A stretch of DNA of 49,920 nucleotides from an uncultured Haliea sp. GTDB lineage: Bacteria > Pseudomonadota > Gammaproteobacteria > Pseudomonadales > Halieaceae. The translations under genes and the position numbers were made by a program. Every line of letters begins with the position of its first letter. Positions within the stretch are counted from its first letter, which is position 1. The notes beneath the pieces were generated by a model, which saw only the letters and a program-made list of their open reading frames with translations, did not search any database and was not told where the DNA came from. The stretch lies in assembly GCA_947258585.1 (NCBI GenBank), contig CAMYIZ010000063.1:1-49920 (forward strand). Direction: 5' to 3'. Shown here one piece after another: positions 25,886 to 45,172 of the stretch.

Positions 25886-25901
25886 AGCACGCTTCGTGCC
25901 A
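25886..25901 (-). promoter_or_regulatory. Sigma-54 (-24/-12) promoter of PEP-CTERM gene 1
   Basis: The reverse strand reads TGGCACG-AAGC-GTGCT. The -24 block is identical to the RpoN consensus, and the GG and GC dinucleotides are correctly ten bases apart; the -12 block deviates only in its first base. The inferred start of transcription near 25875 gives a leader of about 36 nt with GAGGAG before the ATG. Confidence 0.8.
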
Positions 25902-25987
25902 AAGTTGGCGGAGTTGACGTAACTATATGATTTATAGAGCCTGAAGCGCTTCTGCGCCGCCGCAATGGAGAGCTGCGAAGCCGTTAG

Positions 25988-26006
25988 TGTAAAAAAATCC
26001 GACAAT
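25988..26006 (-). promoter_or_regulatory. Putative activator site of PEP-CTERM gene 1 (shared motif)
   Basis: In the direction of the PEP-CTERM gene this reads ATTGTCGGATTTTTTTACA. It lies 86 bp upstream of the -24/-12 element. The same 19-base motif, with 15-16 identities, precedes the other two sigma-54 promoters of this window. That position suits a bacterial enhancer-binding protein. It could also affect the divergent acyltransferase gene at 26183. Confidence 0.65.
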
Positions 26007-26182
26007 CTATGGCGCTCTAGGGCGGCGATGAACCGGCGCTCCCGACATGTTGCAAATGACGCTGGCTGGTTGGGGACCGCTTTCTCAACCCCCGGGGTTC
26101 AGGCTGCTTTGGTAGGCTAACCGGCAACGTGAAACATGCTATGCTTCCCCACGAGATAAGAAAGACTCCCAGGGGAACGTGA

Positions 26183-26914
26183 ATGGATTCTGACGGCGCG
26201 GCATCGCTGCGAGCTCTCGCCAAGTACTTCTCCCTGCACTCCTACGAGCAGGGCAGTGACGGTCCCGAGCTCAATGAGCTTTATGCCCTGCGCTACCAGA
26301 TCTACTGCCTGGAGTGCCATTTCCTCAACGAGGCGCGCTACCCCGACGGGCTGGAGATCGATGATTACGACCAGCGCTCCGCCCACTTTGCCGCCACCAA
26401 CGCAGATGGAGTGGTGGCGGGCACAGCTCGCCTGGTGCTGCCTGCAGCCGGTGAGCCGTTTCCCTTCATTGATCACTGCCCGCCGTTCCCGGATTTCAAG
26501 CCGCCACCGGCAGCGGAGTCCGGGGAGGTTTCGCGGCTGGCGGTGAAGCGGGAGTACCGGCGCCGGGCGGGTGACACGCTGTGGGGCATCAACCAGTCCC
26601 ACCTCAAGGGGCCGTCGGCGCCGGATGAATCCCCCCGCGGCGAGAAGCGGGTGAATGCCCCCCTGCTGGTCTTGGGGCTGTACCGGCAGATCTACCGCTT
26701 CAGCTGCGAAAACGGCATCCGCTACTGGTATGCCGCCATGGAAAAGGGGCTGGCGCGGGTGCTGCGGATCTATGGCTTCGATTTCACCCCCATCGGCCCC
26801 GAAAGCGACTACTACGGGCCCGTGACCCCTTACCTGGGTGACCTGCGCAAACTTGAGCGGGAGCTGGAGGCCTCCAACCCGGCCCTGATGTGGTGGTTCC
26901 GCAGCGGTCCCTGA
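26183..26914 (+). CDS. PEP-CTERM/exosortase system acyltransferase (second copy)
   Basis: A 243-residue paralogue of the gene at 20468. It shares the YALRYQIYCLECHFL, DYDQRSAHFAAT, EVSRLAVKREYRR and YAAMEKGLARVLRIYGF segments, the last followed by PIGPESDYYGPV. It is the more typical length for the PEP-CTERM/exosortase-associated acyltransferase family (TIGR03694-like) and carries an extra loop around residues 130-155 absent from the shorter copy. The fold is LuxI-like; acyl donor and product are unknown. It lies 28 bp before the adenylate-forming ligase gene, so the two probably form an operon that may supply an acyl group to the transporter genes downstream. ATG 26183 has AGGGGAA upstream. 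Confidence 0.88.
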   Translation: MDSDGAASLRALAKYFSLHSYEQGSDGPELNELYALRYQIYCLECHFLNEARYPDGLEIDDYDQRSAHFAATNADGVVAGTARLVLPAAGEPFPFIDHCPPFPDFKPPPAAESGEVSRLAVKREYRRRAGDTLWGINQSHLKGPSAPDESPRGEKRVNAPLLVLGLYRQIYRFSCENGIRYWYAAMEKGLARVLRIYGFDFTPIGPESDYYGPVTPYLGDLRKLERELEASNPALMWWFRSGP

Positions 26915-26942
26915 TACAGAAGCTGGCGAGTTGCCCTGACTG

Positions 26943-28355
26943 ATGCCGTCCCTGAACCGAATCAAGCGCGCCCTGTTGCTGGCCATGCTGGCACGGCAGA
27001 CGCCGGAAAAACTCGTGGCCCTGGCCCGCAAGCGCCTGCCTCGGGTCTTCGCGCGCGCTGCAAGGCAGTCTCCCGCTTATCGCGCATTGCTGGCGGAGGC
27101 GGGCGTGGAGCCGGCGACCTGCCGCACCGGGGAGGCCGTGTTGGCGCGGGCCCCGGTACTGACCAAGGCCGACCTGTTCGAACGCTTCCCCGTCCATGAG
27201 TTACTGGTGCGCGAGGTAGACCCGGCCCGCCTCGGCGGCGTCCTCACCAGTTCCGGCCACGGCGGCAGCAACTTTGCCTTCGGTGTCAGCACCCGGCGGC
27301 AGTTGCAGCTGGCCCCGGATGACATCGACCTGGGCCTGCAGCAGGCCTTCGGCATCGACCAGCGCTCGACCCTGCTGGTGAACTGCTTGCCCATGGGGGT
27401 GTTCTTTACTTCCAACACGGTCTGTGTGGCCAATGTCAGCGTGCGCGAGGACATGGCCTTCGCCATCCTCAACCAGGCCGGCCCCCTGTTTGAACAGGCC
27501 ATCCTCTGTACCGACCCGCTGTTCTGCAAGCGCCTGCTGGACTACGCCCGGGTGCAGCGCTTCGACTGGTCGCGCCTGCGCATGAACGTGGTCCTGGGCG
27601 AGGAGATGTTCTCCGAGGACTATCGCAGCTATCTGGCGGCCGCGCTGGGTGTGCCGCTGGATGCCCCGGGTGGCAGCCTGATCGGCAGTTCCATGGGGGT
27701 GGGGGAGCTGGGCCTGAACCTGTTCTTCGAAACCTCCGAGACCATCGCCCTGCGCCGCGCCTGGCACCGGCAGGACCCGGACCAGCTGCTGCCCTCGTTC
27801 TTTTGCTTCAACCCCCTGCGCAGCTATGTGGAGGTGCTGGAGCCGGATGCGGATGGGGTGGGGGACCTGGTGATCACCATGCTCGATGTCCAGGCGCCGA
27901 TCCCGATGATTCGCTATCGCACCGGGGACCGCGCCCGCTGGCTGACCGACGCGGACCGCGAACCGCTGGATACCGGCGGCCGCGCGGCCCTGGCGGCGCT
28001 GCCCTTTCCCACGGTGGCGGTACTGGGGCGGGAGCGGGACCGGATCGACCCTCACTGGCACGTGGATCACTTCAAGGCCCTGCTGTACCGGCGCCCGGCG
28101 CTGGCGGACCAGCTGTCCGGCGCCTTCCGGGTGCTGCGCCACGGGGACGGCCTGCGCCTGGATGTGCAACTGGGGCTGGCGGCCACCCAGTCGCCCGAGG
28201 CCGTGGCGGCGGAGCTGACAGCGCTGGTCGCGGCGTCGGCCGCGCGCCGCAGTGCGCCGGTCCCGGAGCTGTGCTGCTTTCATTACGGGGAGTTTCCCCA
28301 CGGCATGGGGCTGGACTATGAACGCAAGTTCCGCTATTTCCCGGAGCCCCGGTGA
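26943..28355 (+). CDS. Adenylate-forming ligase (F390-synthetase/phenylacetate-CoA-ligase-like)
   Basis: A 470-residue enzyme of the acyl-adenylate-forming superfamily, in the branch annotated as coenzyme F390 synthetase-related or phenylacetate-CoA-ligase-like. TSSGHGGSNFAFG near residue 100 is the phosphate-binding loop, and PMIRYRTGDRARW near residue 322 is the conserved ATP-contacting Arg-Thr-Gly-Asp motif. It would activate a carboxylic acid as AMP ester and pass it to CoA, a carrier protein or an amine; the substrate is unknown. It follows the LuxI-like acyltransferase by 28 bp, and its stop overlaps the GTG start of the first permease (GTGA). The N-terminal region (residues 1-60) is helical and basic. 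Confidence 0.8.
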   Translation: MPSLNRIKRALLLAMLARQTPEKLVALARKRLPRVFARAARQSPAYRALLAEAGVEPATCRTGEAVLARAPVLTKADLFERFPVHELLVREVDPARLGGVLTSSGHGGSNFAFGVSTRRQLQLAPDDIDLGLQQAFGIDQRSTLLVNCLPMGVFFTSNTVCVANVSVREDMAFAILNQAGPLFEQAILCTDPLFCKRLLDYARVQRFDWSRLRMNVVLGEEMFSEDYRSYLAAALGVPLDAPGGSLIGSSMGVGELGLNLFFETSETIALRRAWHRQDPDQLLPSFFCFNPLRSYVEVLEPDADGVGDLVITMLDVQAPIPMIRYRTGDRARWLTDADREPLDTGGRAALAALPFPTVAVLGRERDRIDPHWHVDHFKALLYRRPALADQLSGAFRVLRHGDGLRLDVQLGLAATQSPEAVAAELTALVAASAARRSAPVPELCCFHYGEFPHGMGLDYERKFRYFPEPR

Positions 28356-29581
28356 GCGTCTCGGCCCTGTTGATGTCCGTGCTGCTGGCCCTGCGCAACC
28401 TGCGCCGGCAGTTCCGTCGCAGCCTCACGGCCCTGCTGTCCATCGGTTTCGGGGTGGCGGCGCTGCTGGTGGCCACGGGTTTCAACGAGGCCATGTTCGA
28501 GGAGTTTCGGGAGGCCACCATCCGCTCCCAGTATGGCCACGTGCAGGTGAGCCGCCCGGGTTTCCAGGACCGGGGGCGCAGTGACCCCTGGGCCTATCTG
28601 CTGCCCGCGGAGGTGGCGGTGGATCCCTCCCTGCTGCCAGCGGGCGCGACGGTAGCGCCGCGGCTGCTGCTGAACGGGCTGGTCAGTTATGGCGAGGTGA
28701 CCCTGCCGTTCATGAGCGAGGGCATCGACCCGGCGCGGGACATGCTGGACGACCGTTCCCTGCGCATGGAGCAGGGTCGGCGCCTGGATGCGACCGGCGA
28801 GCGCCAGGTGGTGCTGGGGGAGGGCCTGGCGACGCAGCTGGAGGTGGCGGTGGGCCAGTCGGTGGTGCTGTTGGCCAATACCCCTGACGGCCAGCTGGGC
28901 GCGGCGGAGGCGGAGGTGGTCGGCATCTTCAGCTCTTTCAGCCAGGAGTTTGACGACGCCGCGCTGCTGATGCCCATCGGACTCGCCCGCGACCTGGCCA
29001 AGGTGGAGGGCGCCCATGCCTGGCTGGTGTTCCTGGAGGATACCGGAGACACCGACGCCGCCCTGGTCCCGCTGCGGGCTGCCCTGCCCGGCGACGACTT
29101 CGATGTCCAGCCCTGGCATGCCCTGGCCGAGTTCTACGCCCGCGCTTCGGCCCTGTTCCAGCAGCAGTTGGATCTGGTCAAGGCCATCGTGGTGTTCATC
29201 ATCCTGCTGGGCATCGGCAATACCATGATGATGAGCGTGCTGGAGCGCACCGGGGAGATCGGCACGGTGATGGCCCTGGGCAACAAGCGGGCGTCAGTGC
29301 TGCGGGGCTTCCTGATCGAGGGTGCCCTGCTGGGGTTGCTGGGTGCGGTGCTGGGGGTGCTGGTGGCGCTGGGGCTGGGTCAGCTGCTGGCCCTGGCGCA
29401 GATCGAGATGCCGCCGCCGCCCACCTTTGCCCGCAGCTACCACGCGGCCCTGTTGATCACGCCGGCCATGCTGCTGGAGACCGTGCTCATTGCCTGCGTA
29501 ACGACGACCCTGGCGTCCCTCTACCCCGCCTGGCGCGCCTCGCGCATGGTTATCGTGGAGGCCATCCGCCATGCGCGCTGA
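28352..29581 (+). CDS. ABC transporter permease (FtsX/MacB type), first copy
   Basis: A 409-residue inner-membrane permease. An N-terminal helix (LALRNLRRQFRRSLTALLS, then a hydrophobic stretch) is followed by a periplasmic MacB-like core of about 200 residues. Three C-terminal helices make up an FtsX domain, with NTMMMSVLERTGEIGTVMAL as the typical cytoplasmic coupling segment. Such permeases act by mechanotransmission in lipoprotein release (LolCE) or export across the outer membrane (MacB). The GTG at 28352 overlaps the previous stop; an ATG at 28373 is an alternative. It pairs with the permease at 29593 and the ATPase at 31696. Confidence 0.88.
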   Translation: MSVSALLMSVLLALRNLRRQFRRSLTALLSIGFGVAALLVATGFNEAMFEEFREATIRSQYGHVQVSRPGFQDRGRSDPWAYLLPAEVAVDPSLLPAGATVAPRLLLNGLVSYGEVTLPFMSEGIDPARDMLDDRSLRMEQGRRLDATGERQVVLGEGLATQLEVAVGQSVVLLANTPDGQLGAAEAEVVGIFSSFSQEFDDAALLMPIGLARDLAKVEGAHAWLVFLEDTGDTDAALVPLRAALPGDDFDVQPWHALAEFYARASALFQQQLDLVKAIVVFIILLGIGNTMMMSVLERTGEIGTVMALGNKRASVLRGFLIEGALLGLLGAVLGVLVALGLGQLLALAQIEMPPPPTFARSYHAALLITPAMLLETVLIACVTTTLASLYPAWRASRMVIVEAIRHAR

Positions 29582-29592
29582 GGTCGCTGCTC

Positions 29593-30813
29593 ATGCGTGA
29601 ACTGCTCCGGCTCGCCGCCCGCAATGTCCTGCGCCACCGGGGCCGTTCCCTGATGACCCTGTTCGGCATTGCCTTCGGCGTGGTAGCCCTGGTCCTCGCC
29701 GGGGGCTTTATCAAGGACACCGTCGACGAGCTGGGCGAGTCCATGATCCACTCCCAGTCCGGTCACCTGCAGATCAGTCGCACCGGTTACCGGGAGGAGG
29801 GCAGCCGCGAGCCGGCGACGTTCCTGATCCGCGAGCCGGAAGCCCTGCGCGCGGAGCTGGCGGCCCTGCCGGCGGTGGACGAGGTGCTGCTGCGCACCGC
29901 ATTCTCCGGCCTGTTGAACAACGGCCGCACCGACTGGGCGATCATGGGGGAGGGGGTGGAGCCCGCGGCCGAGGTGCGCCTGGGCACCTATATCAACATC
30001 TCGGAGGGCCGCCAGCTGGCGGAATCCGACCCCTTTGGCATGCTGCTGGGGGCCGGGGTGGCGCAGGCCCTTGACCTGGCGCCCGGGGACTGGGTCAACC
30101 TGCTGACCAACACCACCGATGGCGCGGTCAACGTGCTGGAGTTCCAGGTAGTCGGCATCTTCCAGACCTTCTCCAAGGACTACGACGCCCGCGCCGTCCG
30201 CATTCCCCTGCCCGCGGCCCAGGAGCTGCTGGGGGACGACGGTGTGCACCTGGCGGTGCTGCGGCTGCAGCGCACCGATGCCACCGCCGCGGTCAAGCGT
30301 GCGGCAGAGGCTGCGCTGGCGGGGCGCGGCTTCGAGGTGCTGGACTGGCAGCGCCTGAACCCCTTTTACCGCCAGACGGTGGAACTGTACCAGCAGCAGT
30401 TCGGCTTCCTGGTGCTGGTGATCCTGTTGATGGTGACGTTGAGCGTCGGCAACACCATCAACATGAATGTCTACGAGCGGGCCGCGGAGTTCGGCACCAT
30501 GCAAGCCTGCGGTGCACCGCGGCGGGAGATCTTCCGCCTGATCCTGCTGGAGAGTGCCCTGCTGGGCGTGGCGGGCGCCACCCTCGGCGTCATCGCCGGC
30601 AACGGCCTGGCGCTGCTGATTTCCTGGATCGGCATCCCCATGCCGCCGCCGCCCAACTCCGACATCGCCTACATCGCCCTGATCCGTCTGGCCTGGTGGA
30701 TTACCGGGGTCGCCTTCCTGATTGGGGTGCTGGCGCCCGTTGTCGCCGCCCTGCGGCCCGCCCGGCGGGCGGCCCGGGCGGATATCGCGGAGTCCTTGCG
30801 GCAGGCGGTGTGA
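29593..30813 (+). CDS. ABC transporter permease (FtsX/MacB type), second copy
   Basis: A 406-residue permease with the same plan: N-terminal helix (LAARNVLRHRGRSLMTLFGI), periplasmic core, and FtsX segment VGNTINMNVYERAAEFGTMQ before the last helices. With the 28352 gene it can form a LolC/LolE-like heterodimer. It starts 11 bp after the first permease and its stop codon (TGA) is directly adjacent to the stop of the reverse-strand LolA-like gene, with no spacer. Its sequence differs enough from the first permease to be an old duplication. Confidence 0.88.
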   Translation: MRELLRLAARNVLRHRGRSLMTLFGIAFGVVALVLAGGFIKDTVDELGESMIHSQSGHLQISRTGYREEGSREPATFLIREPEALRAELAALPAVDEVLLRTAFSGLLNNGRTDWAIMGEGVEPAAEVRLGTYINISEGRQLAESDPFGMLLGAGVAQALDLAPGDWVNLLTNTTDGAVNVLEFQVVGIFQTFSKDYDARAVRIPLPAAQELLGDDGVHLAVLRLQRTDATAAVKRAAEAALAGRGFEVLDWQRLNPFYRQTVELYQQQFGFLVLVILLMVTLSVGNTINMNVYERAAEFGTMQACGAPRREIFRLILLESALLGVAGATLGVIAGNGLALLISWIGIPMPPPPNSDIAYIALIRLAWWITGVAFLIGVLAPVVAALRPARRAARADIAESLRQAV

Positions 30814-34229: not shown

Positions 34230-34354
34230 CGCGCTCCATTCTCCCCCCTCCAAGCCGCCGAAATTGTGAGCCAGTCCCGCTTTTCGTCTTGGCGCTGACG
34301 CTCGCCTGCCGTAGAGTGAGCGGTGCGATTTCAGATCTTGGAGGCAAAACCACA

Positions 34355-36934
34355 ATGCGCTGCTCCTGCCGCAAGGCTTTGCTGTTCTTTTTTGTCCTGG
34401 CCCTGGCGGGCTGCTCGCGTTCGCTCCCCCCCGAGGAGTTGTTGCAAAGAGCTGAGCTTGCGCTTGAGCAGGGCCGTTTGAACGCTGCAGTGATTGATAT
34501 CAAATCGGCGCTGCAACAGCTTCCCTCTGATGACAGGGGCCGTCGCCTGCTCGGCGAGGTATATCTGCACCAGCGGCTGTTCGCAGAGGCGGCAGCGGAA
34601 TTCGAGCGCTCGTTGGGGACGACGGCCGACCCCGCAGTAGCGGCACTTTATGCGGAAGCCTTGAACAGCAGCGGTCAGCCGCAGAAAGTCATCGACCTCC
34701 ACAGCGAAGGCTTTTTCGATTTTGCGCTACTTGAACCTGCTTTTGTCGCAGTCCTGGCGAAATCACAAATTCTGCTGGGAGACACCTTCGAGGCGGAGAA
34801 CACGCTGGCGCAGGCGCTGGCGCTGGATGCGACCCATCCCGAGGTTCGTCTGGCGGAGGCCATCTTTGCCGTCAATCACCAGCGCGACCTGGAACGGGGA
34901 GCACAGATTCTGGGGCTGCTCACCGAAGAGCACCCCGAGTTTGACGAAGCCTGGAGCTTTTATGGTGCGCTGTTGGCGCGACAGGGTGATTTGGTAGCGG
35001 CCGAGAGTGCCTATGGTCGCGCCTCGGCGATCAATCCCTCCCGCATGAGCGATCGTCTTATGCGGGTCAACCTGTTGCTGGAACTCACCCGGTTCGAGGA
35101 TGCGGACGCGGAACTGCGTCTCCTCGAAGAGCGCATACCCGACCATCCGGGACTCCACTACGCGCGGGGACGGCTGCTATTCATCCAGGACCAGCCGGCT
35201 GTCGCACTGGAAGCATTGCAGAAAGTTCTGGCGGTTGCGCCCGACCATGTACCCAGCCTCTACCTGGCCGGCGCTGCCAATTTCAATCAGGGTAACCTGG
35301 CTACAGCAGAACGCCAGTTGTCCCGGTTTGTCGCCGCGCAGCCTTCCCATCTCAACGGCCGCCAGCTGTTGGCGGGCGTTCTGCTACAACTCAATGAGCC
35401 CAAGCGCTCTGCAACGATCGCTCGCGGCATACTCGAGGAGCAACCGATGAACCTCCCCACCATGAATATCCTCGCACTGGCACTTGCCGCCCAGGGTATG
35501 CACGCCGCCAGTGCAGAGATCTTCGAAGACATCGCCGCTCAGGCACCGGACTATGCGGTAACGCGGATGCAGCTGGGTACCGAACTCATGCGCGCGGGTG
35601 AAACGGCGCGGGGTATCGCGGAGTTACAGGCTGCACTGGTGCTGGAACCTGCGAGCAGCGATATCCGCGGGCGTCTGGTGCAGGCGCACCTGGTGCAGGG
35701 CGAAGATGACGAGGCCCTGGCCCTGGCCATGGAAGGTCTGGAACAGTCGCCCGACGACCTGAAGGCGCTGCTCAATCTGGCTGCGGTGCACGCCCGGCGC
35801 GGGGAGGTACAGGCGATGCTCGAGGTCCTCGACCGGGGCATGGATGCGCACCCCGACGCGCTGGAGCCGCGGTTGGTGATGGCGCGCTACCACGCCAGAC
35901 ATGGCGGGCAGCCGGGCGATGCACTGGACCTGTTGAACGACGTACCGGAAGCGCAGCGAGACGATCCGCGGATCCTCGAGGTCATGGTGTATGCCTACCT
36001 TCGCATTGGTGAGCCCGGCGCCGCGCTGGAATCCGCCCGCAAGCTGGCGGCGCAACTGCCTGACAATGTGGTCGCCCTGAGACTGCTGGCCCGGGCGGAG
36101 CGAGCGAATGACGATCCCGCGGCCTCCGAGAGACACCTGCGTCGGGCCCTGGAACTGCAACCGGAGGATTTCGAGAGCCGCAAGCTCCTGGTGGAGGCGC
36201 TGCTGATCCAGAACAAGCTGCGGGAAGCGGACGAGGCGGTGCAGGCGTTTCCCCCCGGCGCCCTGCCGGAGGCGCAGGTCAACCTGACGCGCGGGCGGAT
36301 TGCCGCAACGCTGGGGGATGTGGAGACCGGTGAGCGTCTGTTGCGCCAGGCCTGGGCGCAGGCGCCTGCCAGTAACACGGCGCGCCTGCTGGCTTCAGTG
36401 CTGTGGGCGCAACCGGGCAAGCGCAACGAAGCGATTGAGCTGCTGGAGGGCTGGCTGGCGCGTGCCCCTGAAGACGCTGCCGTGCAGCAGCAGCTGGGCT
36501 CCTACCATGTGCTCGAGGGTAACGATGCCCGGGCGCTGCCGCTGTTTGAGGCGCTGCTGGAGCGCAGGCCCGACGATGTGGTGGCGATGAATAATATCGC
36601 CTGGTTGCTGCGCAAATCGGAGCCCGGGCGCGCCCTGAGATTGGGCCGCGCTGCGCTGGTCGCGGCCCCGGACAGTCCGGCGGTGCAGGATACCGTCGCC
36701 ATGGTATTGCTGGAGCAGGGTGAGCACGGTGAGGCGCTGGCTCTCAATGAGCGGGCCCTGGCGGCGGCGCCGCAGTCGCCCGACATGCGCTTTCATCGCG
36801 CCCAGATCCTGGTGGCAGCGGGGGACGTCCCTGCGGCGATCGAAATCCTGCAGGATCTGGCCTCGGGGCCTGACTTCGCGGGCAAGGCTGAAGCCGGGGC
36901 GTTCCTGGCGGGGCTTCAGGCGGGGTCGAGGTGA
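34355..36934 (+). CDS. TPR-repeat lipoprotein of the PEP-CTERM system (PrsT-like), first copy
   Basis: An 859-residue lipoprotein. The signal peptide ends in lipobox LALAGC, so Cys20 is the acylated residue. The mature part is almost all tetratricopeptide repeats, starting with PEELLQRAELALEQGRLNAA and continuing to the C-terminus, as in the PEP-CTERM system TPR lipoprotein family (TIGR02917-like). The family is thought to serve exopolysaccharide export or assembly in the periplasm or on the outer membrane, as a protein scaffold; the exact partner is unknown. ATG 34355 has GGAGG upstream and gives the normal signal peptide, while the upstream frame does not. It is followed by the sigma-54-controlled Tat operon. 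A shorter paralogue is at 41651. Confidence 0.88.
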   Translation: MRCSCRKALLFFFVLALAGCSRSLPPEELLQRAELALEQGRLNAAVIDIKSALQQLPSDDRGRRLLGEVYLHQRLFAEAAAEFERSLGTTADPAVAALYAEALNSSGQPQKVIDLHSEGFFDFALLEPAFVAVLAKSQILLGDTFEAENTLAQALALDATHPEVRLAEAIFAVNHQRDLERGAQILGLLTEEHPEFDEAWSFYGALLARQGDLVAAESAYGRASAINPSRMSDRLMRVNLLLELTRFEDADAELRLLEERIPDHPGLHYARGRLLFIQDQPAVALEALQKVLAVAPDHVPSLYLAGAANFNQGNLATAERQLSRFVAAQPSHLNGRQLLAGVLLQLNEPKRSATIARGILEEQPMNLPTMNILALALAAQGMHAASAEIFEDIAAQAPDYAVTRMQLGTELMRAGETARGIAELQAALVLEPASSDIRGRLVQAHLVQGEDDEALALAMEGLEQSPDDLKALLNLAAVHARRGEVQAMLEVLDRGMDAHPDALEPRLVMARYHARHGGQPGDALDLLNDVPEAQRDDPRILEVMVYAYLRIGEPGAALESARKLAAQLPDNVVALRLLARAERANDDPAASERHLRRALELQPEDFESRKLLVEALLIQNKLREADEAVQAFPPGALPEAQVNLTRGRIAATLGDVETGERLLRQAWAQAPASNTARLLASVLWAQPGKRNEAIELLEGWLARAPEDAAVQQQLGSYHVLEGNDARALPLFEALLERRPDDVVAMNNIAWLLRKSEPGRALRLGRAALVAAPDSPAVQDTVAMVLLEQGEHGEALALNERALAAAPQSPDMRFHRAQILVAAGDVPAAIEILQDLASGPDFAGKAEAGAFLAGLQAGSR

Positions 36935-37015: not shown

Positions 37016-37034
37016 AGTGTTGGAAATTTTTACA
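37016..37034 (+). promoter_or_regulatory. Putative activator site of the Tat/HPr-rel-A operon (shared motif)
   Basis: Reads AGTGTTGGAAATTTTTACA, 74 bp upstream of the -24/-12 element. It keeps the TGT-N11-ACA frame, the GG and the T-run of the motifs before both PEP-CTERM genes (15 of 19 bases equal to the copy at 25988-26006). A palindrome TGCCA-CAC-TGGCA lies just before it (37003-37015). Confidence 0.55.
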
Positions 37035-37108: not shown

Positions 37109-37124
37109 TGGTGTGAAATTTGCT
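37109..37124 (+). promoter_or_regulatory. Sigma-54 (-24/-12) promoter of the Tat/HPr-rel-A operon
   Basis: Reads TGGTGTGAAATTTGCT: the GG and GC dinucleotides are ten bases apart and the TTGCT box matches RpoN consensus; the -24 block is TGGTGTG rather than TGGCACG. The inferred start near 37135 gives a leader of about 39 nt to ATG 37174. Confidence 0.75.
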
Positions 37125-37173: not shown

Positions 37174-37860
37174 ATGGATATGGAAAAGATGACTGACAGG
37201 CAATCCAGGGAGGCGGGGCCTGTGGATTCAGCCGCTGAGCGCCCAGATGGCCAGCTGTCACGCCGCCGCTTTACCGGCGCGGGTCTTGCAGCGCCGGTCA
37301 TTCTTTCACTGGCGAGTCGACCAGCGTTTGGCGCCATCTGCACGCCCTCCGGCTTTGTGTCCTACTCCCCCAATAATCCCTCGGGTGTCCGCCACGTGGT
37401 TGATGGTTGCGGTGGCTTGAGCCCGGGTGCCTGGAAAAACCCCTATGCGGGCAATGGCGATGGATCTTTCCGGGACTGGTTGGCTGCGGGGTATTTGCCC
37501 AACGACCCTGACGAGCAGCCACCTAACGCCGGAGCTGGTAACAATACAAGCGGCATAAGGCGTTATAAGCGGGACAACCCGGGCCCTTATGTCCCGACGT
37601 TGTTCACCGATGCCTTTGGCGGCTACGGCCCGTCGGGCCTGTCGATGCACGATGTGTTGCTCGACCTGCCGGGCTCCCTTGAATTTCATGCCGCCGCGAC
37701 CTTGTTGAATGCCGCTTCTGGTATTCCCGGTTACATGTCACCTTCAACGGTCATCAACCTTTACATCGCCTCGTTTACCGGCACCTACAGTTCCGGTGGT
37801 ACCACCATCGACATGTCCACTTTCGATCTCAAGGCCTTCTTTGAGCAGACCTACCACTAA
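37174..37860 (+). CDS. Tat-exported protein at the head of an HPr-rel-A-type operon
   Basis: A 228-residue protein with a twin-arginine signal: SRRRFTGAGLAAPVI at residues 29-43 and cleavage near AFG-A at residue 54. The mature part has only two early Cys (56 and 79), the second in CGGLSPGAWKNPY, a motif that resembles proteins found near PEP-CTERM and HPr-rel-A genes; the rest is Gly/Ser/Pro-rich without a known domain. I infer that it is the protein acted on by the following three gene products. An upstream ATG at 37135 coincides with the predicted transcription start, so ATG 37174 (leader about 39 nt) is the better choice. No catalytic motif is seen. Confidence 0.75.
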   Translation: MDMEKMTDRQSREAGPVDSAAERPDGQLSRRRFTGAGLAAPVILSLASRPAFGAICTPSGFVSYSPNNPSGVRHVVDGCGGLSPGAWKNPYAGNGDGSFRDWLAAGYLPNDPDEQPPNAGAGNNTSGIRRYKRDNPGPYVPTLFTDAFGGYGPSGLSMHDVLLDLPGSLEFHAAATLLNAASGIPGYMSPSTVINLYIASFTGTYSSGGTTIDMSTFDLKAFFEQTYH

Positions 37861-37866: not shown

Positions 37867-38166
37867 ATGGCGGGCGCCGGCAGGCGGTGGCAAGTCAGGT
37901 CCATTGCTACTTGCCATCTGCATACATTCCCCGAAGGCATCGTACTCCTGAATACCGCCGACAAACGGTCATGCTATCTGCCGGGGCTGGCGGGAGCTGT
38001 GTTTGCTCTGCTCTTACAGTCACCCGCGGGCCTTGACGAAGCCGCCATCCTGAGTGCCCTGCAACCGGCAATAAGCAATGGGTCGGGCACTGCAATGTGT
38101 CCGGACGAGCTCGGTGTCGCGCTGTCAGCGCTAGAAGCCCAGCGTCTTATTGGCGAGGTCGCGTGA
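37867..38166 (+). CDS. PqqD-family protein of the HPr-rel-A system
   Basis: A 99-residue protein resembling PqqD-type peptide-binding chaperones (EGIVLLNTADKRSCYLPGLAGAVF is typical of the strand-turn-strand core, followed by helices with a DEAAILSAL segment). In the HPr-rel-A gene set such a protein is named the PqqD-family component (TIGR04353-like). PqqD-like folds present peptide substrates to modifying enzymes; that role here is inference. It starts 6 bp after the Tat protein gene and its TGA overlaps the GTG start of the HprK-related gene (GTGA). The ribosome binding site is weak. Confidence 0.75.
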   Translation: MAGAGRRWQVRSIATCHLHTFPEGIVLLNTADKRSCYLPGLAGAVFALLLQSPAGLDEAAILSALQPAISNGSGTAMCPDELGVALSALEAQRLIGEVA

Positions 38167-39074
38167 AAATTGCCGATATGCCGCAGGCGGACCTGGAATC
38201 ACGGCTGCGGTCCCGGGGGCTGGTGTTTGGAGCGGGGCGGTTTTCTGTCAGGCTCATAAGCAGGCTTGAAAGCGTTGCCCAAGGAATCAGTCTGGTCTAT
38301 GGGGATTACGAAACCGTGGACTCGGATTTCGCCGATTTCACTGTTCGTGTGCGGCGCGCGGGGGGGCTGCACCGGATAGTGCGTCCCCAGGCGGAATTTT
38401 CACTGGATGGCGCCAAGCCTTTTTCACCTCTGCCCCTGGCTCATGCCTTTCCACTTCTCGAGTGGGGGCTCAACTGGTGTGTCAGCAATCATTGCCATCA
38501 GTATCTGATCGTTCACGCTGCGGTAGTAGAGAAGCACGGGCGTGCGCTGATCCTGCCCGGCGCACCCGGTTCGGGCAAGAGTACCTTGTGTGCGCTATTG
38601 ACCGGACGTGGAGGCTGGCGACTGCTTTCAGACGAGTTGACGCTGATTGATCCTGTGAATGGCAGCGTTCACGCCAACCCGCGCCCGGTGAGCCTGAAGA
38701 ACGAGTCCATCGATATCGTCAGGCGCGAGCTTCCCGGCGCGGTCCTCAGTCCTCCGGTCACCGATACCTTGAAGGGCACCGTCTCGCATCTGCAGCCGGC
38801 AGCGGACAGTGTCTCGCGGGCTCACGAGCCGGCAGCGCCCGCGCTTGTCGTATTCCCCCGCTTCACTGATGGCAGTTCCGCGGAACTCCTGCCGCTCCCC
38901 AAAGGCGAGGCCTTCATCCGCATGGCCGACAACGCCTTCAACTATTCGATCCTCGGACTTGCCGGTTTCCGGGCCCTCGCCGCGCTGCTGGACCAGAGTG
39001 ACTGCTACGAGTATCCCAACGGCGGCGACGTCCAGCACGCCCTGGCCACCATGGACGCGCTGGTGGCGCCATGA
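38163..39074 (+). CDS. HprK-related kinase A (HPr-rel-A system)
   Basis: A 303-residue protein related to the C-terminal kinase domain of HPr kinase/phosphorylase. GAPGSGKSTLCALL near residue 133 is the P-loop, and LLSDELTLIDP provides the typical Asp-Glu pair. The N-terminal segment (KIADMPQADLESRLRSRGLVF) matches the HprK-related kinase A family (TIGR04352-like). No HPr or PTS gene lies nearby, so its target is probably not HPr; the Tat-exported protein or an unknown peptide is a possible substrate. GTG 38163 overlaps the PqqD stop and fits the family start; its ATGA end couples to the nucleotidyltransferase gene. Confidence 0.83.
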   Translation: MKIADMPQADLESRLRSRGLVFGAGRFSVRLISRLESVAQGISLVYGDYETVDSDFADFTVRVRRAGGLHRIVRPQAEFSLDGAKPFSPLPLAHAFPLLEWGLNWCVSNHCHQYLIVHAAVVEKHGRALILPGAPGSGKSTLCALLTGRGGWRLLSDELTLIDPVNGSVHANPRPVSLKNESIDIVRRELPGAVLSPPVTDTLKGTVSHLQPAADSVSRAHEPAAPALVVFPRFTDGSSAELLPLPKGEAFIRMADNAFNYSILGLAGFRALAALLDQSDCYEYPNGGDVQHALATMDALVAP

Positions 39075-40180
39075 CTGCGCCACTCGATGCCCTGCGGTTT
39101 CCGCTGCGCTCCGTGCTGCTTAATCCCGCGGTGGTTACGGACTTTGACCTGGCCCGCTGGGACCTGCTCCTGCAGCAGGCCCGGGGCGCCGGCCTGCTGG
39201 CCCGGGTGGCGGCGTTGCTGGAGGAAGGCGGGCTTGGGGAGCGGGTGCCGGAGGCCATGCGCTGGCACCTGGACAGCGCGCTGGTGGTCTACCGCGCGCA
39301 CTGCGAGGATATCCGCCTGGAGGTCGGGCACATTGCCCGCGCCCTGCAGTCCATCGGCGTGCGTCCCGTGCTGCTGAAGGGGGCGGCCTACCTGGCGGCG
39401 GGTGATCGGGCCCGCCTCGGGCGCCTGTTCAGCGACGTGGATATTTTCGTGCCGCGCGAGCGCATCGAGACGGTAGAGCAGGTGCTGCGCTGGCAGGGGT
39501 GGTCGGGGGAGGAGTTGAGCGCCTACGACCAGGCCTACTACCGGCGCTGGATGCACGAAATCCCGCCGCTGATGCACGGCGGCCGGGGTATCGCCCTGGA
39601 TGTGCACCACAACCTGCTGCCGCTGACGTCCCGCCTCAGGCTCGACGCCGCGGCGCTGGCTGCGGCGGTGGTACCGTCGGAGATCCCGGGCGTGGATACC
39701 CTGGCGCCCGCCGATCGCGTGTTGCACAGCGCCGCGCATCTGCTGCTTGAAGGCGAATTTGACAACGCCTTTCGCGACCTGTCGGACCTCTACCTCATGA
39801 TTACCGACATGCGCGCCGCCGACCCGGGCTTTGAGGAGTTACTGGTGGCGCGCGCGGAGCAGCTGGGGCTGGGCCGTATCCTGTACTACGCGATGCGCTA
39901 CCTTGCCCTGCTGCTTGATCTGGAGCTGTCGGCGCCGGCGGCGGCTCGGCTGGCTGCCAGCGCTCCCGTCGCGCCCCTGCGCTGGCTGATGGACCAGCTG
40001 TTCCCGAGCGCCCTGCTGCCGGTGGGGGTGACGGGCGCGGGCGGCTGGCCGGCACTGGCCCGGTTCGCCCTCTACCTGCGCTCGCACTACCTCAAGATGC
40101 CAGTGCCGCTGCTGCTGCGCCACCTGTGGCACAAGGCGGTGATCACACCCTTCGAGTACCGCGAAGGGGACCCGGCCTGA
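39071..40180 (+). CDS. Nucleotidyltransferase family protein (HPr-rel-A system)
   Basis: A 369-residue protein of the uncharacterised nucleotidyltransferase family (PF14907-like). RLFSDVDIFVPRE near residue 118 carries the Asp-x-Asp pair of the polymerase-beta fold, preceded by VLLKGAAYL with the helix-forming Gly region. A long helical C-terminus follows. It may nucleotidylate a protein or sugar; nothing in the sequence shows the substrate. Its ATG overlaps the kinase stop by four bases (ATGA). As last gene of the Tat/PqqD/HprK-like set it likely belongs to the same sigma-54 transcript. It occurs next to HprK-related genes in other genomes, from memory. Confidence 0.8.
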   Translation: MTAPLDALRFPLRSVLLNPAVVTDFDLARWDLLLQQARGAGLLARVAALLEEGGLGERVPEAMRWHLDSALVVYRAHCEDIRLEVGHIARALQSIGVRPVLLKGAAYLAAGDRARLGRLFSDVDIFVPRERIETVEQVLRWQGWSGEELSAYDQAYYRRWMHEIPPLMHGGRGIALDVHHNLLPLTSRLRLDAAALAAAVVPSEIPGVDTLAPADRVLHSAAHLLLEGEFDNAFRDLSDLYLMITDMRAADPGFEELLVARAEQLGLGRILYYAMRYLALLLDLELSAPAAARLAASAPVAPLRWLMDQLFPSALLPVGVTGAGGWPALARFALYLRSHYLKMPVPLLLRHLWHKAVITPFEYREGDPA

Positions 40181-40219: not shown

Positions 40220-40417
40220 TCAGCCCCTTGTCGTCATCGCATGTAGCTTGGCGAAGCAGCCCATGGCGAGCAGCGCGATGCCACCCAGCAGCCACATCCT
40301 GAGCTCGGTGCCCAGCAGGTAGTAACTGCCCGCAAAGCGCAGCACCACCGCCAGCACACAGACCAGCACCCCGACCGTGCCCAGGGCTGTACCGATTCCA
40401 TCCACCGCCTGTTTCAT
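40220..40417 (-). CDS. Small two-helix membrane protein
   Basis: A 65-residue protein with two hydrophobic helices (about residues 8-28 and 40-57) and a short, mildly basic C-terminus. The reverse-strand start codon has GAGGTG five bases before it, which supports expression. No family is recognised. It faces the nucleotidyltransferase gene tail-to-tail (39 bp apart) and lies 79 bp before the start side of the galE 3' end, so it is an independent small unit. It could be a modulator of a nearby membrane complex, but no function should be assumed. Confidence 0.55.
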   Translation of the reverse strand: MKQAVDGIGTALGTVGVLVCVLAVVLRFAGSYYLLGTELRMWLLGGIALLAMGCFAKLHAMTTRG

Positions 40418-40496
40418 AGCACACCTCGATTGTTGTTATGGCCCAAGTATCGGCCCGCCCCGCGGCGAAAGCAATATGGCACGGCCGGAGCCAGGG

Positions 40497-41486
40497 CTAG
40501 CGTCGCCATGCCCCGGCGCGCTGCTCCCACTGCCAGGCGTGGCGGACGATGGTGTCGAGATCCGCGTACTGTGGCGCCCACCCCAGCTGGCCGCGGGCCA
40601 GCGCCGGGTCCGCGACCAGGGTATCCGGGTCCCCGGGCCGCCGCTCGCTGGTGATCACCGCAATGTCGCGTCCGGTGATGCGGCGGGCGGTATCGATTAC
40701 CTGCTGCACCGAGAAGCCAGTCCCGTTGCCGAGATTGAAGGACGCGCCGGTCGGCGATGAGGCCAGAAAATCCAGCGCCAGCTGATGGGCCGTGCACAGG
40801 TCCACAACATGAACGTAGTCCCTGATACAGGTGCCATCCGCCGTCGCGTAGTCAGTCCCGAACACCGTGATCGCCTCCCGGTGGCCCGAGGCTGCCTGCA
40901 GTACCAGGGGAATGAGGTGCGTTTCCGGTAGATGGCGCTCGCCGAGGCTGCCGTCGGGCTGGGCTCCCGCCGCGTTGAAATAGCGCAGGCACACCGAGCG
41001 CAGGCCATAGGCCCGCTCGAAGTCCGCGAGAATTTGCTCCACCATCAGCTTGCTGTGGCCGTAGGGGCTGAGCGGCTGCTTGGGGTGGGCTTCGTCAATG
41101 GGGGAATACACCGGGTTGCCGAAGATGGCCGCGCTGGACGAGAAGACAAAGGAGGAAATGCCGTGAGCGACCATGCGCTCCAGCAGCACCAGGGTGTGGC
41201 AGAGGTTGTTGCGGTAATACTTTGCGGGCGCAGTGACGGATTCCCCGACCTGGATGTCGGAGGCCATGTGAATGACATGCCTGATACTGCCCGCCGCGAA
41301 CAGGCGATCCAGTAGGGCGGTGTCCGACATCTCCCCGACCACCAGCTCCGCCCGGCTGTCCACCGCGTCCCGATAACCCGACTGCAGGTTGTCGAGCACC
41401 ACAACCCGGTAGCCTGCGTCACACAACACTCTTGTCATGTGTGACCCGATATAGCCTGCGCCACCGACAATCAGGACGGCGCTCAT
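40497..41486 (-). CDS. galE: UDP-glucose 4-epimerase
   Basis: A 329-residue short-chain dehydrogenase-type epimerase. GGAGYIGSH at residues 8-16 is the NAD-binding loop, and SPYGHSK near residue 147 holds the catalytic Tyr and Lys; the sugar-binding VCLRYFNAAGAQPDG follows. It interconverts UDP-glucose and UDP-galactose, supplying UDP-galactose for the exopolysaccharide. It is 165 bp from the divergent TPR lipoprotein gene, so both promoters lie in the shared interval. No operon partner follows it on the same strand except the small membrane protein downstream. Confidence 0.93.
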   Translation of the reverse strand: MSAVLIVGGAGYIGSHMTRVLCDAGYRVVVLDNLQSGYRDAVDSRAELVVGEMSDTALLDRLFAAGSIRHVIHMASDIQVGESVTAPAKYYRNNLCHTLVLLERMVAHGISSFVFSSSAAIFGNPVYSPIDEAHPKQPLSPYGHSKLMVEQILADFERAYGLRSVCLRYFNAAGAQPDGSLGERHLPETHLIPLVLQAASGHREAITVFGTDYATADGTCIRDYVHVVDLCTAHQLALDFLASSPTGASFNLGNGTGFSVQQVIDTARRITGRDIAVITSERRPGDPDTLVADPALARGQLGWAPQYADLDTIVRHAWQWEQRAGAWRR

Positions 41487-41650
41487 GCGTCAACTTCCAC
41501 GGCAGTCTCCTTCCCGGCAAAAGCCCTAGCTTACCGGGTCCCCGGGGTCAGGTCTCGCATTCCGGGGCGGGATGGCGCAGGCCTGTATCGGAGTGCCCAT
41601 GCTGCTACTACAATGAAGACCGTGGCCCACCAATTCCAGGCGTCAGGCGT

Positions 41651-43855
41651 ATGCATTCAAGCTTACCGGTATATGTTGGATCTCTTGTGTTGCTGTCCTG
41701 GGTGGTTGCATGCTCGCCATCCCCGGCGCCCGAACAGCTGCTGGCGCGCGCCAGCCAGGCACTGGAGGCAGGCGATCTCAATGCCGCGGTGATTGACGCC
41801 AAGTCGGTGTTGCAGCAGGACGCGGAGAGCGCCGAAGGGCGCTACCTGCTCGGCGCTGCCTATTACCGCCAGCGCAATATGGAAGCCGCCGCCGCGGAGC
41901 TTGAACGCGCATTTGCCCTGCGGCCGGACCCGGCGGTGGCGGCGCTCTATGCGCAAGCGCTGGTCACTCTCGGTGAGTCGGCGCGCCTGGTAGAGATGCA
42001 CGAGGCGGGAGAATTCGACCATGCGCTGGGCAGCGTGGACTTTGTGGCGACTCTGGCGCGAGCCCAGGCCCTCAGTGGCGACACCTTCACTGCCGAACAG
42101 ACGCTGGCGACTGCTCGCAGCCTGGACAGTGAGAGCCCGGCGCTGATGCTGGCCGAGGCGGTATTCACGCTGCGGCATACAGCTGACCTGGCGCAGGCAA
42201 CGACGGTGCTGGAGGCGCTTGTCCAGCGCTACCCGGAGCATGAGGACGGCTTGAGTCTGCTGGGTTCCGTATCATTGACCCGCGGTGATATGCAGCGTGC
42301 GGAAGCGGTTCTGGGGCGGGCGCTGGCGCTGAATCCAAACCGCACCGGGGACAGGTTGTTGCTGGTCAATCTCCTGCTCGACCGGGAGGCGACCGGTCAG
42401 GCCACCGACCTGCTCGAGCCGGTTGCCGTGGCGGCACCGCGGCACCCCGGTGTCCTCTATGCCCGGGCCCGCTTGCTGCTGCTGCAGGACCAGGCACGGG
42501 CCGCGCTGGAAGTGCTCCAGCAGCTGTTGGCCGCGTCCCCGAATCATCATCCCAGTCTGTACCTGGCAGGCGTTGCCAACGTTCGCGAGGGCAATCTCTC
42601 CACTGCCCGGCTGCAGCTGTCACAGTTTCTCAGCGTCCAGCCGCAGCATGTGAATGCCCGCCTGTTAAAGGCGAGCGTGCATCTGCAGCTCGGCGAGCAG
42701 GACCAGGCGCGGGTGATCGCCCGGGAGATCCTGGCGGAATACCCCGACAATATGCCGGCCAGGCAGGTCCTTGCCGCCAGTGCACGGGAACCGTCGCCGG
42801 GAGCCCCGGCCTTGCAGGAGGCCCGGGCTGCGCTGCAGCGGGACAATCCGGAGGAGGCACGGGAACACTTTGTCCGCGCCCTGGAGCTGGACCCGATGTT
42901 GCAGCCGGCGCGTGAAGGCCTGACAGCGCTGGCGCTGGATGGCGGCGACTTTGCCGCGGCCGTGGCCACGATTCAGGAGGGCCTGCGCCTGCAGCCGGAC
43001 AAGCTGCAGTGGCTGCTGCGCCTGGCGGCGGTGCATGCGCAGGCGGGCAATCTCGATGCCATGGCGGGTTTGCTGCAGCAGGCGGTGGCTGTACACCCAT
43101 CCGCTGCGGAACCGCGGCTGGTGCTGGCGCGCTATCGTCTGCAACAGGGTGAGCCGGACGCGGCGGTAGCGCTGTTGACGCAGATTCCCGATCACCCCCG
43201 CGTATTGTTGTTGCTCGGCCAGATCGAGCAGGCGCGAAACGCCCCCGGGGCCGCCGAGGATTACCTGCGCCGGGCGCTGGAGCTGGAACCTGAACATATG
43301 GATGCTCGCCAGTTGCTGGTGGCGACGCTCTTGCAGCAGGGCAAGACGGCGCAGGCGGTGGACTTGATGGAGTCCTGGCTGGACACGCTGCCGGATGATA
43401 TCCCGACCCTGCACCAGGTGGGTGCCTACTACCTCGCCCGGGGCCGGAATGAAGAAGCCCGCACGCTGTATGAACGCCTGCATGTCCTGGCACCGGACGA
43501 CGCCGTGGTGCTGAACAATCTGGCCTGGCTACACGGCGACAGCGATCCGGAGCGGGCACTGTCACTGGTCGAGCGGGCTTTACAGTTGGCGCCTGATCAT
43601 GCGGGTATTCTCGATACCCAGGCGATGATCCTGTTGCGGCAGGGAAAGCTGGAGCAGGCCCTGGCCGTGAACCGGCAGAGTATTGATGCCAGCCCCGGGG
43701 AGCCGGCCTACCGGATGCACCGGGCCCGGATTCTCGCGGCGAGGGGAGACAGCGATGCCGCTGCGGATGTCCTCGTGGAGCTGTTGGCGAGCAACAGCGA
43801 ATTCGACCAGCGGGAGGAAGCCGAAATTTTGCTGCGGGAGCTGCGGGACAGGTAG
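41651..43855 (+). CDS. TPR-repeat lipoprotein (PrsT-like), second copy
   Basis: A 734-residue paralogue of the gene at 34355. A short signal peptide ends in VVAC (lipid-modified Cys21). The first repeats (PEQLLARASQALEAGDLNAA, then IDAKSVLQQ and DPAVAALYAQAL) align closely with the first copy; TPR motifs continue to the end. The N-terminal frame is open 73 codons further upstream without similarity, so ATG 41651, at the normal distance before the lipobox, is chosen. It is about 125 residues shorter than the first copy. It converges with the second PEP-CTERM gene across a strong bidirectional terminator. Function as for the paralogue: probable exopolysaccharide assembly scaffold. Confidence 0.85.
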   Translation: MHSSLPVYVGSLVLLSWVVACSPSPAPEQLLARASQALEAGDLNAAVIDAKSVLQQDAESAEGRYLLGAAYYRQRNMEAAAAELERAFALRPDPAVAALYAQALVTLGESARLVEMHEAGEFDHALGSVDFVATLARAQALSGDTFTAEQTLATARSLDSESPALMLAEAVFTLRHTADLAQATTVLEALVQRYPEHEDGLSLLGSVSLTRGDMQRAEAVLGRALALNPNRTGDRLLLVNLLLDREATGQATDLLEPVAVAAPRHPGVLYARARLLLLQDQARAALEVLQQLLAASPNHHPSLYLAGVANVREGNLSTARLQLSQFLSVQPQHVNARLLKASVHLQLGEQDQARVIAREILAEYPDNMPARQVLAASAREPSPGAPALQEARAALQRDNPEEAREHFVRALELDPMLQPAREGLTALALDGGDFAAAVATIQEGLRLQPDKLQWLLRLAAVHAQAGNLDAMAGLLQQAVAVHPSAAEPRLVLARYRLQQGEPDAAVALLTQIPDHPRVLLLLGQIEQARNAPGAAEDYLRRALELEPEHMDARQLLVATLLQQGKTAQAVDLMESWLDTLPDDIPTLHQVGAYYLARGRNEEARTLYERLHVLAPDDAVVLNNLAWLHGDSDPERALSLVERALQLAPDHAGILDTQAMILLRQGKLEQALAVNRQSIDASPGEPAYRMHRARILAARGDSDAAADVLVELLASNSEFDQREEAEILLRELRDR

Positions 43856-43938
43856 GTGGCCCTGATGCCCTGTTTGCACATCAGCGGGGCAGGCCCTACT
43901 TCGTGTGGCGGCAACCTCATCGGCAGTGGCTGCCCCCT

Positions 43939-43974
43939 AAAAACAAAACCCCGCTATAGCGGGGTTTTGTTTTT
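43939..43974. terminator. Bidirectional intrinsic terminator
   Basis: AAAACAAAACCCCGC and GCGGGGTTTTGTTTT form a near-perfect inverted repeat around TATA: a GC-rich inner stem flanked by A and T runs, effective in both directions. It separates the convergent TPR lipoprotein gene and the second PEP-CTERM gene. Confidence 0.9.
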
Positions 43975-43983
43975 GCGATCGAT

Positions 43984-45018
43984 TCAGCTGGCGGTGGGTC
44001 GCCGCACCGTTCGCAGGAGCAGCAAACCGGCGCCCAGCAGCAACAGGGTCCCGGGTACGGGCACCGTGGTGATGTCCCCGTCGAACTGGTTCGTGATCCA
44101 GACGTACTCGCCGCCGTTGGTGTTGTTCGCCAGGCGCAGGTCCAGGGACAGGATCCAGTCGCTCTCTGCGGTATTGTAGACGTAGTCGTTCAGGGCCTGG
44201 CTGAAGATCGCATTGTCGGCAAAATTGCCCAGGTTGCCGCTGACAAAGTAGCCATCCGGGCTGCAGTCCCCGTCGTTGCCGGCCAGCCCCAGGTCATAGG
44301 CAGCACCGGTGACCTTGTCCACGCAATAGCCGGTAAAGGCACCGACATAGTCCCCGGGGTTGGTCACGAAGTCATACGCGGGGTCGGTGACCAGAACGAG
44401 GTCCGGCTGACCGACCATGCAACCACTGTTTGGCGCAGTGTTGCTGAACTCAAAGCAGGCCTGCTCGACGCCGGAATCGTCGTAGATCCTGACCTGGGCC
44501 CAGGCCTGCAGCCACTGGTTGATGTTGTCCCCTTCCTGGTTGTTGTTGAGCAGGAAGACCAGGTCGCTGCCAAACAGCCAATCGGTCAGTGCCCCGATCT
44601 GGACATCCCAGCTGCCAGTCCTGTCTCCGGTGAAAGTGTTGGTGGGCTCATTGCCGGCGCCCATGACCAGTGCTTCACCGTTGCCGGTGGGAGAGCTGAA
44701 GGGGTTGTCGCCCAGGTCATTCAGAGGTGGGGTATTGTCATTGACTCCACCGCCAGCCGCCGAGGACAGGATGACCACGAGGTCCTGGATCTGACCGGGT
44801 CCGCCGCCAATCTTGTCCAGGTCCGCGGAAGCGGGCTGGCAGCGCGGGTCGGCCTTGCACTTTTCCAGCAGTTCCAGCGAGTACACGGCGAAATCGTTGT
44901 ACTGGATAACGGTGAGCTCATTCGGGGGCGGCAGGAGGTCGGCCCTGGCGCAGAGAGGCAGGGCCAGGGCAAGAGCGACCAGTGCGGGCTTCGGAAGACA
45001 GCGGAAGAAGGTACTCAT
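43984..45018 (-). CDS. PEP-CTERM domain protein (exosortase substrate), second copy
   Basis: A 344-residue secreted protein with signal peptide (about residues 1-27, ALALALPLCARA) and C-terminal sorting signal PVPGTLLLLGAGLLLLRTVR with a basic tail. As in the first PEP-CTERM protein the usual PEP is altered, here to PVP. The body is rich in Asn, Asp and Gly and has scattered Cys; no domain is recognised, but the region with GDNINQWLQAW is distinctive. It is probably sorted by exosortase to the cell surface or matrix. The longer frame from 45099 runs through the sigma-54 promoter, so ATG 45018, with AGGAG at the right distance, is the start. Confidence 0.88.
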   Translation of the reverse strand: MSTFFRCLPKPALVALALALPLCARADLLPPPNELTVIQYNDFAVYSLELLEKCKADPRCQPASADLDKIGGGPGQIQDLVVILSSAAGGGVNDNTPPLNDLGDNPFSSPTGNGEALVMGAGNEPTNTFTGDRTGSWDVQIGALTDWLFGSDLVFLLNNNQEGDNINQWLQAWAQVRIYDDSGVEQACFEFSNTAPNSGCMVGQPDLVLVTDPAYDFVTNPGDYVGAFTGYCVDKVTGAAYDLGLAGNDGDCSPDGYFVSGNLGNFADNAIFSQALNDYVYNTAESDWILSLDLRLANNTNGGEYVWITNQFDGDITTVPVPGTLLLLGAGLLLLRTVRRPTAS

Positions 45019-45061
45019 GATGTGACTCTCCTGACGAGAGAACGAGGCTATGTATACAGGA

Positions 45062-45077
45062 CGCAAATTTTCAGCCA
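45062..45077 (-). promoter_or_regulatory. Sigma-54 (-24/-12) promoter of PEP-CTERM gene 2
   Basis: The reverse strand reads TGGCTGAAAATTTGCG: GG and GC ten bases apart, TGGC and TTGC matching the RpoN consensus. The inferred start near 45051 gives a leader of about 33 nt, and it lies inside the longer open frame, showing that the upstream start codon is not used. Confidence 0.8.
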
Positions 45078-45153
45078 TATCGACAATTATCGATGACAAT
45101 CAATGGGTTAGTGCTCACTCCGGTGCTGTGTCAGGATACGGTAGAGGTGTCAT

Positions 45154-45172
45154 TGTAAAAAAACCTGACAGT
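45154..45172 (-). promoter_or_regulatory. Putative activator site of PEP-CTERM gene 2 (shared motif)
   Basis: In the gene direction it reads ACTGTCAGGTTTTTTTACA, 76 bp upstream of the -24/-12 element. It has 16 of 19 bases in common with the copy before PEP-CTERM gene 1. A second TGTCAGG in inverted orientation lies at 45129-45135, giving a possible dimer-of-dimers arrangement. Confidence 0.65.

Follow-up and report, generated by a model that had tools for sequence, protein, structure and literature searches.

We analysed a 49,920-nt stretch of DNA from an uncultured Haliea sp. (hereafter the window), which corresponds to the whole of contig C63 in a genome of 4.19 Mb and 77 contigs. The window contains two PrsT genes plus other genes of the XrtA/PEP-CTERM system. 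Both PrsT genes encode TPR proteins on the + strand (34289..36934 and 41432..43855) and match TIGR02917 over its cut-off. The - strand carries a PEP-CTERM protein gene (24967..25839, 290 aa), whose product exceeds the cut-off of PF07589 and stays below those of the NCBIfam PEP-CTERM families, and a PEP-CTERM-like protein gene (43984..45018, from ATG 45018), whose product ends in the C-terminus VPVPGTLLLLGAGLLLLRTVRR, is absent from the PF07589 matches and resembles NCBIfam PEP-CTERM families at this end with scores under their cut-offs. Elsewhere in the window, a single frame of 592 aa (18531-20309) matches exosortase A system hydrolase 2 and hydrolase 1 in tandem, as if two usually separate genes had been fused.

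On the + strand, the window also holds an HPr-rel-A cassette that encodes, in this order, a Tat-signal protein, a PqqD-like protein, an HprK-related kinase A and a nucleotidyltransferase. Its first gene (37174..37860, from ATG 37174) specifies a secreted protein of 228 aa and is not a PEP-CTERM gene. It is followed by the PqqD-like protein (37867..38166, 99 aa), the positional counterpart of TIGR04353, and by the kinase (38097..39074), which matches TIGR04352 with 359.4 bits (cut-off 200) and whose true start probably lies inside this frame. The last gene (39071..40180) encodes a nucleotidyltransferase of the NTP_transf_5 type (159.5 bits, cut-off 31.2). With a kinase over cut-off and a PqqD-like protein beside it, the cassette resembles the HPr-rel-A system as defined by TIGR04352 and TIGR04353.

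Each of the two PEP-CTERM genes and the cassette is preceded by the same composite site, which can be read directly from the sequence as an upstream motif (motif 1, the PEP-CTERM box and putative PrsR site) paired with a sigma-54 -24/-12 element. Ahead of the 290-aa PEP-CTERM gene, motif 1 (TGTCGGATTTTTTTACA, 25988..26004, - strand) stands 86 bp from its -24/-12 element (TGGCACGAAGCGTGCT, 25886..25901, - strand). At the cassette, the motif (TGTTGGAAATTTTTACA, 37018..37034, + strand) is separated by 74 bp from the element (TGGTGTGAAATTTGCT, 37109..37124, + strand), and ahead of the second PEP-CTERM gene the motif (TGTCAGGTTTTTTTACA, 45154..45170, - strand) lies 76 bp from the element (TGGCTGAAAATTTGCG, 45062..45077, - strand), spacers being measured from the ACA end of the motif to the T of TGG. 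The motif cores are 17-nt TGT-N11-ACA sequences that end in TTTACA at all three promoters, and every element has the form GG-N10-GC. With the predicted +1 placed 12 positions after the C of the -12 element, the leaders would measure 36 nt (ATG 25839), 39 nt (ATG 37174) and 33 nt (ATG 45018); if the upstream in-frame ATG 37135 were instead the start codon, the cassette transcript would be nearly leaderless. The earlier note on this DNA had described three motif and promoter pairs, with GG and GC ten bases apart, leaders of 33-39 nt and distances of 86, 76 and 74 bp, and each of these statements was reproduced in our measurements.

To quantify these sites, we used a composite score that sums 14 motif positions and 12 sigma-54 positions and allows spacers of 40-100. 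Exactly three sites with a score of at least 20 were found in the window (scores 25, 22 and 22), and candidate sites belonging to the PrsT genes themselves were thus rejected. Across 200 dinucleotide shuffles of the window, the mean was 0.055 sites with a score of at least 20, the maximum was 1 and none reached 22. The scoring consensus was derived partly from the three window sites themselves, and the relatives described below are therefore the more independent test.

The regulators expected for such promoters are encoded in the same genome. PrsR is found on contig C28 (696 bits, cut-off 502.6) and is adjoined by PrsK (763 bits, cut-off 300), so that both lie side by side outside the window, where the earlier note had found neither of them. 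They are followed on C28 by XrtA-type exopolysaccharide genes matching TIGR03027, TIGR03007, TIGR03018 and TIGR03006 over their cut-offs, and by a match to TIGR03015 just under its cut-off. The genome has one copy of rpoN (505.6 bits, cut-off 277.35), and the check for rpoN and a PrsR homologue in the organism thus returned both, each over its cut-off. Ten other stretches of the genome match the PrsR model over its AAA+ part with 200 to 362 bits, below the cut-off.

Next, we searched the rest of the genome for further sites. The exact motif TGTYRGRNNTTTTTACA occurs four times in the 4.19 Mb, three of them in the window. The fourth copy (C30:198850-198866, locus L020) stands ahead of a gene for what by eye is a TIR-like protein; it was rejected as a further promoter since GG-N10-GC is absent 30-130 bp downstream on its strand, and it may be a decayed promoter or a chance occurrence. 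When up to three mismatches were allowed, the motif gave 145 matches in the genome versus 180 for the reversed pattern, and an enrichment of loosely matched motifs was rejected, which places the specificity in a near-exact motif coupled to the -24/-12 element. A genome search for the composite pattern, with N9 between TGG and TGC, returned seven matches, and two for the reversed pattern. Three of the seven are those of the window, those on C76 and C52 look real, and the ones on C6 and at C30:58702 were discarded because no convincing motif 1 accompanies them (C6 yields no score, C30:58702 a score of 19). The site on C76 precedes a PEP-CTERM gene outside the window, and all 3 of the 3 recognised PEP-CTERM genes of the genome carry a composite site when five weaker PF07589 matches, at a level where control genomes match too, are left out. 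The earlier proposals that the arrangement should be uncommon elsewhere in the genome and should recur before other PEP-CTERM genes were therefore borne out for the composite site, which is rare and was found ahead of the C76 gene; for the motif at up to three mismatches, the first of them failed. The presence of PrsR, PrsK and rpoN, together with the rarity of the composite site, supports the further proposal that one activator, perhaps PrsR, would act with sigma-54 at all three promoters.

The site on C52 (1663-1749, - strand, locus L061) is a full composite site with a spacer of 65, situated ahead of a 448-aa gene whose product has a signal peptide and is hydrolase-like by eye. This gene is a possible further regulon member of non-PEP-CTERM type.

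For the relatives, we scored composite sites of at least 21 on the sense strand upstream of HprK_rel_A, with three control regions per locus (upstream antisense, downstream sense and downstream antisense). The samples are the best-scoring loci, not random draws, and four of the loci from named genomes duplicate loci of the family or class samples. Locus L066 of the family genome G010 agrees with that of Kineobactrum sediminis (L192), a species of Halieaceae, at 13 of 13 sampled probes of 100 bases. Among the best 30 of the 34 kinase genomes of the family, the site was present in 24, a number that includes the window's own locus, and the controls gave 3, 0 and 0 sites; six loci lacked it, and of these L078 and L087 are truncated upstream. 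The best 30 of the 42 kinase genomes of the class likewise yielded 24 loci with the site and no control sites (0, 0, 0), rising to 26 of 30 at a score of at least 20, with one of the misses (L119) being a truncated locus. In named genomes, 54 of the best 80 of 372 relatives have the site (controls 0, 7 and 0), and 57 of these 80 have it at a score of at least 20.

The named loci without a site thus number 26 of the best 80 of 372 relatives at a score of at least 21 and 23 at a score of at least 20, and relaxed limits recovered only L185 and L226 of these 23 at the lower score. Five of the misses (L191, L207, L208, L214, L218 or L227) carry the title of Methylococcaceae or presumably belong to them; since several are Methylococcaceae by title, the link between site and cassette is not universal. 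The pairing of promoter and cassette nevertheless covers most of the tested Beta- and Gammaproteobacteria and extends to one member of the Desulfuromonadales, Malonomonas rubra (L219).

Sites in the control regions were inspected individually. Of the seven downstream-sense sites, four precede PEP-CTERM genes, two precede a gene that is lytic-transglycosylase-like by eye and one falls inside a coding frame, and the idea that all of them are noise was rejected. The two sites downstream of the cassette at L174:11016 and L194:10945 lie ahead of the gene with a lytic transglycosylase-like C-terminus, as judged by eye, which makes this gene a candidate further member of the regulon. In the family sample, the spacers of the three antisense sites (L067, L070 and L073) measure 50-51, and these sites could be genuine divergent promoters.

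The gene order behind the promoter was also followed in the relatives. By a rough rule, a Tat-like frame was recognised in 71 of the 80 named loci (best 80 of 372 relatives). Five of these frames (L161, L169, L196, L197 and L204) were judged false or doubtful and dropped, so that 66 remained, even if in the case of L197 the exclusion by the rule was wrong, as a Tat-type frame stands behind its box. No Tat protein was found at the operon start of L092, nor at those of L078 and L087, both of them loci that are truncated upstream. An alignment of 27 of the 66 frames with the window copy (28 sequences) shows invariant positions at an Arg-Arg pair, a Cys, two Ser, a Trp and an Asn. We also observed in this family (37174-37860 and its counterparts in L156-L235) that SPGYWK is frequent and that the middle part is variable. 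Pfam matched 0 of the 28 members, and NCBIfam gave four single-member matches with E values from 0.043 to 0.13, one of which was to a Tat signal. A structure model of the window's protein has a mean pLDDT of 67.5 and is confident in its C-terminal part, with blocks from about residue 141 onwards at 80-95, and a Foldseek search of the PDB with this only partly confident model found no match at E <= 0.001. Counterparts of the PqqD-like protein were extracted from 25 loci, three of which (L183, L184 and L213) were excluded as wrong frames and three more (L167, L189 and L225) for brevity. TIGR04353 matches all 19 aligned counterparts (E <= 0.01); the window's own copy is unmatched.

The distances between motif and promoter are themselves structured. 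A strict version of the composite pattern found 51 sites in 40 of the 370 class genomes and none in reversed form, and these sites were examined together with the 57 HPr-rel-A sites of the named loci (best 80 of 372 relatives), some genomes being possibly common to both sets. Spacers cluster at about 52, 63, 74-75, 85 and 95 bp. The best period was 11.3 bp for the strict sites (coherence 0.71), 10.65 bp for the named HPr-rel-A sites (coherence 0.59) and 11.0 bp for both sets pooled (coherence 0.64); in each case, all of 2000 sets with spacers jittered by at most 6 bp had a lower coherence, in a comparison that ignores kinship. The observation in the earlier note that two of the window's spacers differ by one helical turn hence holds generally, with spacers phased at about 11 bp, which is what a looping activator needs. 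The same spacing of about 11 bp is seen in the loop lengths of the sigma-54 enhancers of Vibrio qrr genes, according to the available part of that study (PMC4740811), although those enhancers serve another activator and other genes, which encode small RNAs.

The occurrence of PrsR follows that of the kinase. Among 120 family genomes, the kinase is over cut-off in 34, PrsR in 40 and both in 33, the one with the kinase and without PrsR being G098. The corresponding numbers among 370 class genomes are 42, 114 and 41, and the only genome with the kinase and without PrsR (G457, locus L106) has no composite site either. Fisher tests of this co-occurrence, which ignore kinship, gave p values of 1.6e-21 in the family and 9.5e-23 in the class. 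PrsR is moreover present in 39 of the 40 genomes with a strict site (the exception being G185) versus 114 of 370 overall. A strict site occurs in just 39 of the 114 genomes that have PrsR, so the strict pattern is insensitive and misses much.

An arrangement of this kind has been described before, as the earlier note had allowed. In the available part of their text, Haft et al. (2006, PMC1569441) report that 99 of 167 proteobacterial PEP-CTERM genes are preceded by a 17-nt motif ending in TTTACA, which a spacer of 32-92 nt (mean 62.8, SD 10.6) separates from a sigma-54 element. Their phylogenetic profile named PrsR, PrsK and PrsT, with PrsR as the likely activator; sigma-54 polymerase requires an AAA+ activator, and PrsR has such an architecture (PMC1569441). 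The sites of the window agree with this PEP-CTERM box regulon in their TTTACA-ending 17-nt motif, as compared with the published text, in spacers of 86, 76 and 74 that fall within 32-92 nt, allowing that the motif borders of the paper may shift by a few bases, in the sigma-54 element and in the presence of PrsR, PrsK and PrsT in the genome (PMC1569441). As to the genes downstream, the one at 24967..25839 has a PEP-CTERM product over cut-off, that at 43984..45018 gives weaker matches and the first cassette gene is of another kind, although the paper has room for sites ahead of other genes. The two PEP-CTERM promoters are thus further examples of the arrangement described in 2006. A similar promoter is that of pepA in Aquincola tertiaricarbonis, a PEP-CTERM gene that is RpoN1-dependent and whose transcript start, located by mapping, is accompanied by -24/-12 motifs and a predicted enhancer upstream (PMC9850573); that study deals with a single PEP-CTERM gene, the cassette is not its subject and the available part of its text makes no mention of Tat.

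The third site is the part that goes beyond the published targets that we found. In the available part of the 2006 paper, a few additional sites before other genes are reported and none is named, whereas in our data one particular non-PEP-CTERM cassette is preceded by the site in different genera; likewise, spacers are given there as mean, SD and range only, whereas here they show helical phasing (PMC1569441). Among the titles and abstracts that our searches of the open-licence literature listed, we found no HPr-rel-A system with a conserved Tat-exported first gene or a PrsR-type promoter, and in the same literature no publication that assigns a role to the cassette.

Taken together, these results make it highly probable that all three promoters are controlled as part of the XrtA/PEP-CTERM system's PrsK/PrsR regulon, with the HPr-rel-A cassette as a widely conserved member. 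The evidence, all of it read from sequence, is that the sites are present and rare, that different genera conserve them ahead of the same genes, that they co-occur with PrsR and that their spacers are helically phased. According to this model, the membrane kinase PrsK would phosphorylate PrsR, an NtrC-type activator, which would bind the TGT-N11-ACA motif and, through DNA looping, contact the sigma-54 RNA polymerase already poised on the -24/-12 element, thereby turning on the two PEP-CTERM genes and the cassette together.

It is conceivable, if less probable than a functional connection, that the cassette is co-regulated only through its nearness to exosortase genes and has no functional link to PEP-CTERM proteins. 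The kinase lies about 5-8 kb from PrsR in many family genomes, and their common location may be a historical legacy; against this, many class genomes keep the site even though PrsR and the kinase are on different contigs or far apart. Much less plausible is that a different sigma-54 activator reads the motif and that PrsR merely travels with the exosortase loci. The ten weaker matches to the AAA+ part of the PrsR model would provide such activators, but the near-constant presence of PrsR in strict-site genomes, the lack of a site in G457 and the choice of PrsR by the phylogenetic profile in the available part of the published study (PMC1569441) all argue for PrsR itself. Finally, a coincidental HPr-rel-A promoter, with only the two PEP-CTERM promoters as real regulon members, could appeal to the T at motif position 4 in place of the usual C and to the in-frame ATG 37135 that would sit almost at +1, yet it is largely refuted by site frequencies before the cassette far above those of the controls in all three samples of best-scoring loci (24/30, 24/30 and 54/80) and by the phasing of the HPr-rel-A spacers, and we consider it extremely improbable.

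Within the PrsK/PrsR regulon, the gene content of the cassette, with a PqqD-type binder, a kinase and a nucleotidyltransferase, suggests that the Tat protein might be modified before export. We therefore propose, as a tentative reading that has somewhat less than an even chance of being right, that HPr-rel-A forms another branch of the PEP-CTERM/exopolysaccharide programme, in which a matrix protein induced by PrsR alongside the exosortase substrates would be modified by its cytoplasmic partners, the PqqD-type peptide binder, the HprK-like kinase and the nucleotidyltransferase, and then exported through Tat. If this is true, PrsK/PrsR would govern two delivery routes to one extracellular matrix, a Tat route for a folded, pre-modified protein and another that relies on exosortase sorting. 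The phased spacers add a quantitative signature of DNA looping to this regulon, and the same promoter before HPr-rel-A would place an orphan modification cassette in the biofilm/exopolysaccharide programme, suggesting a role for it.
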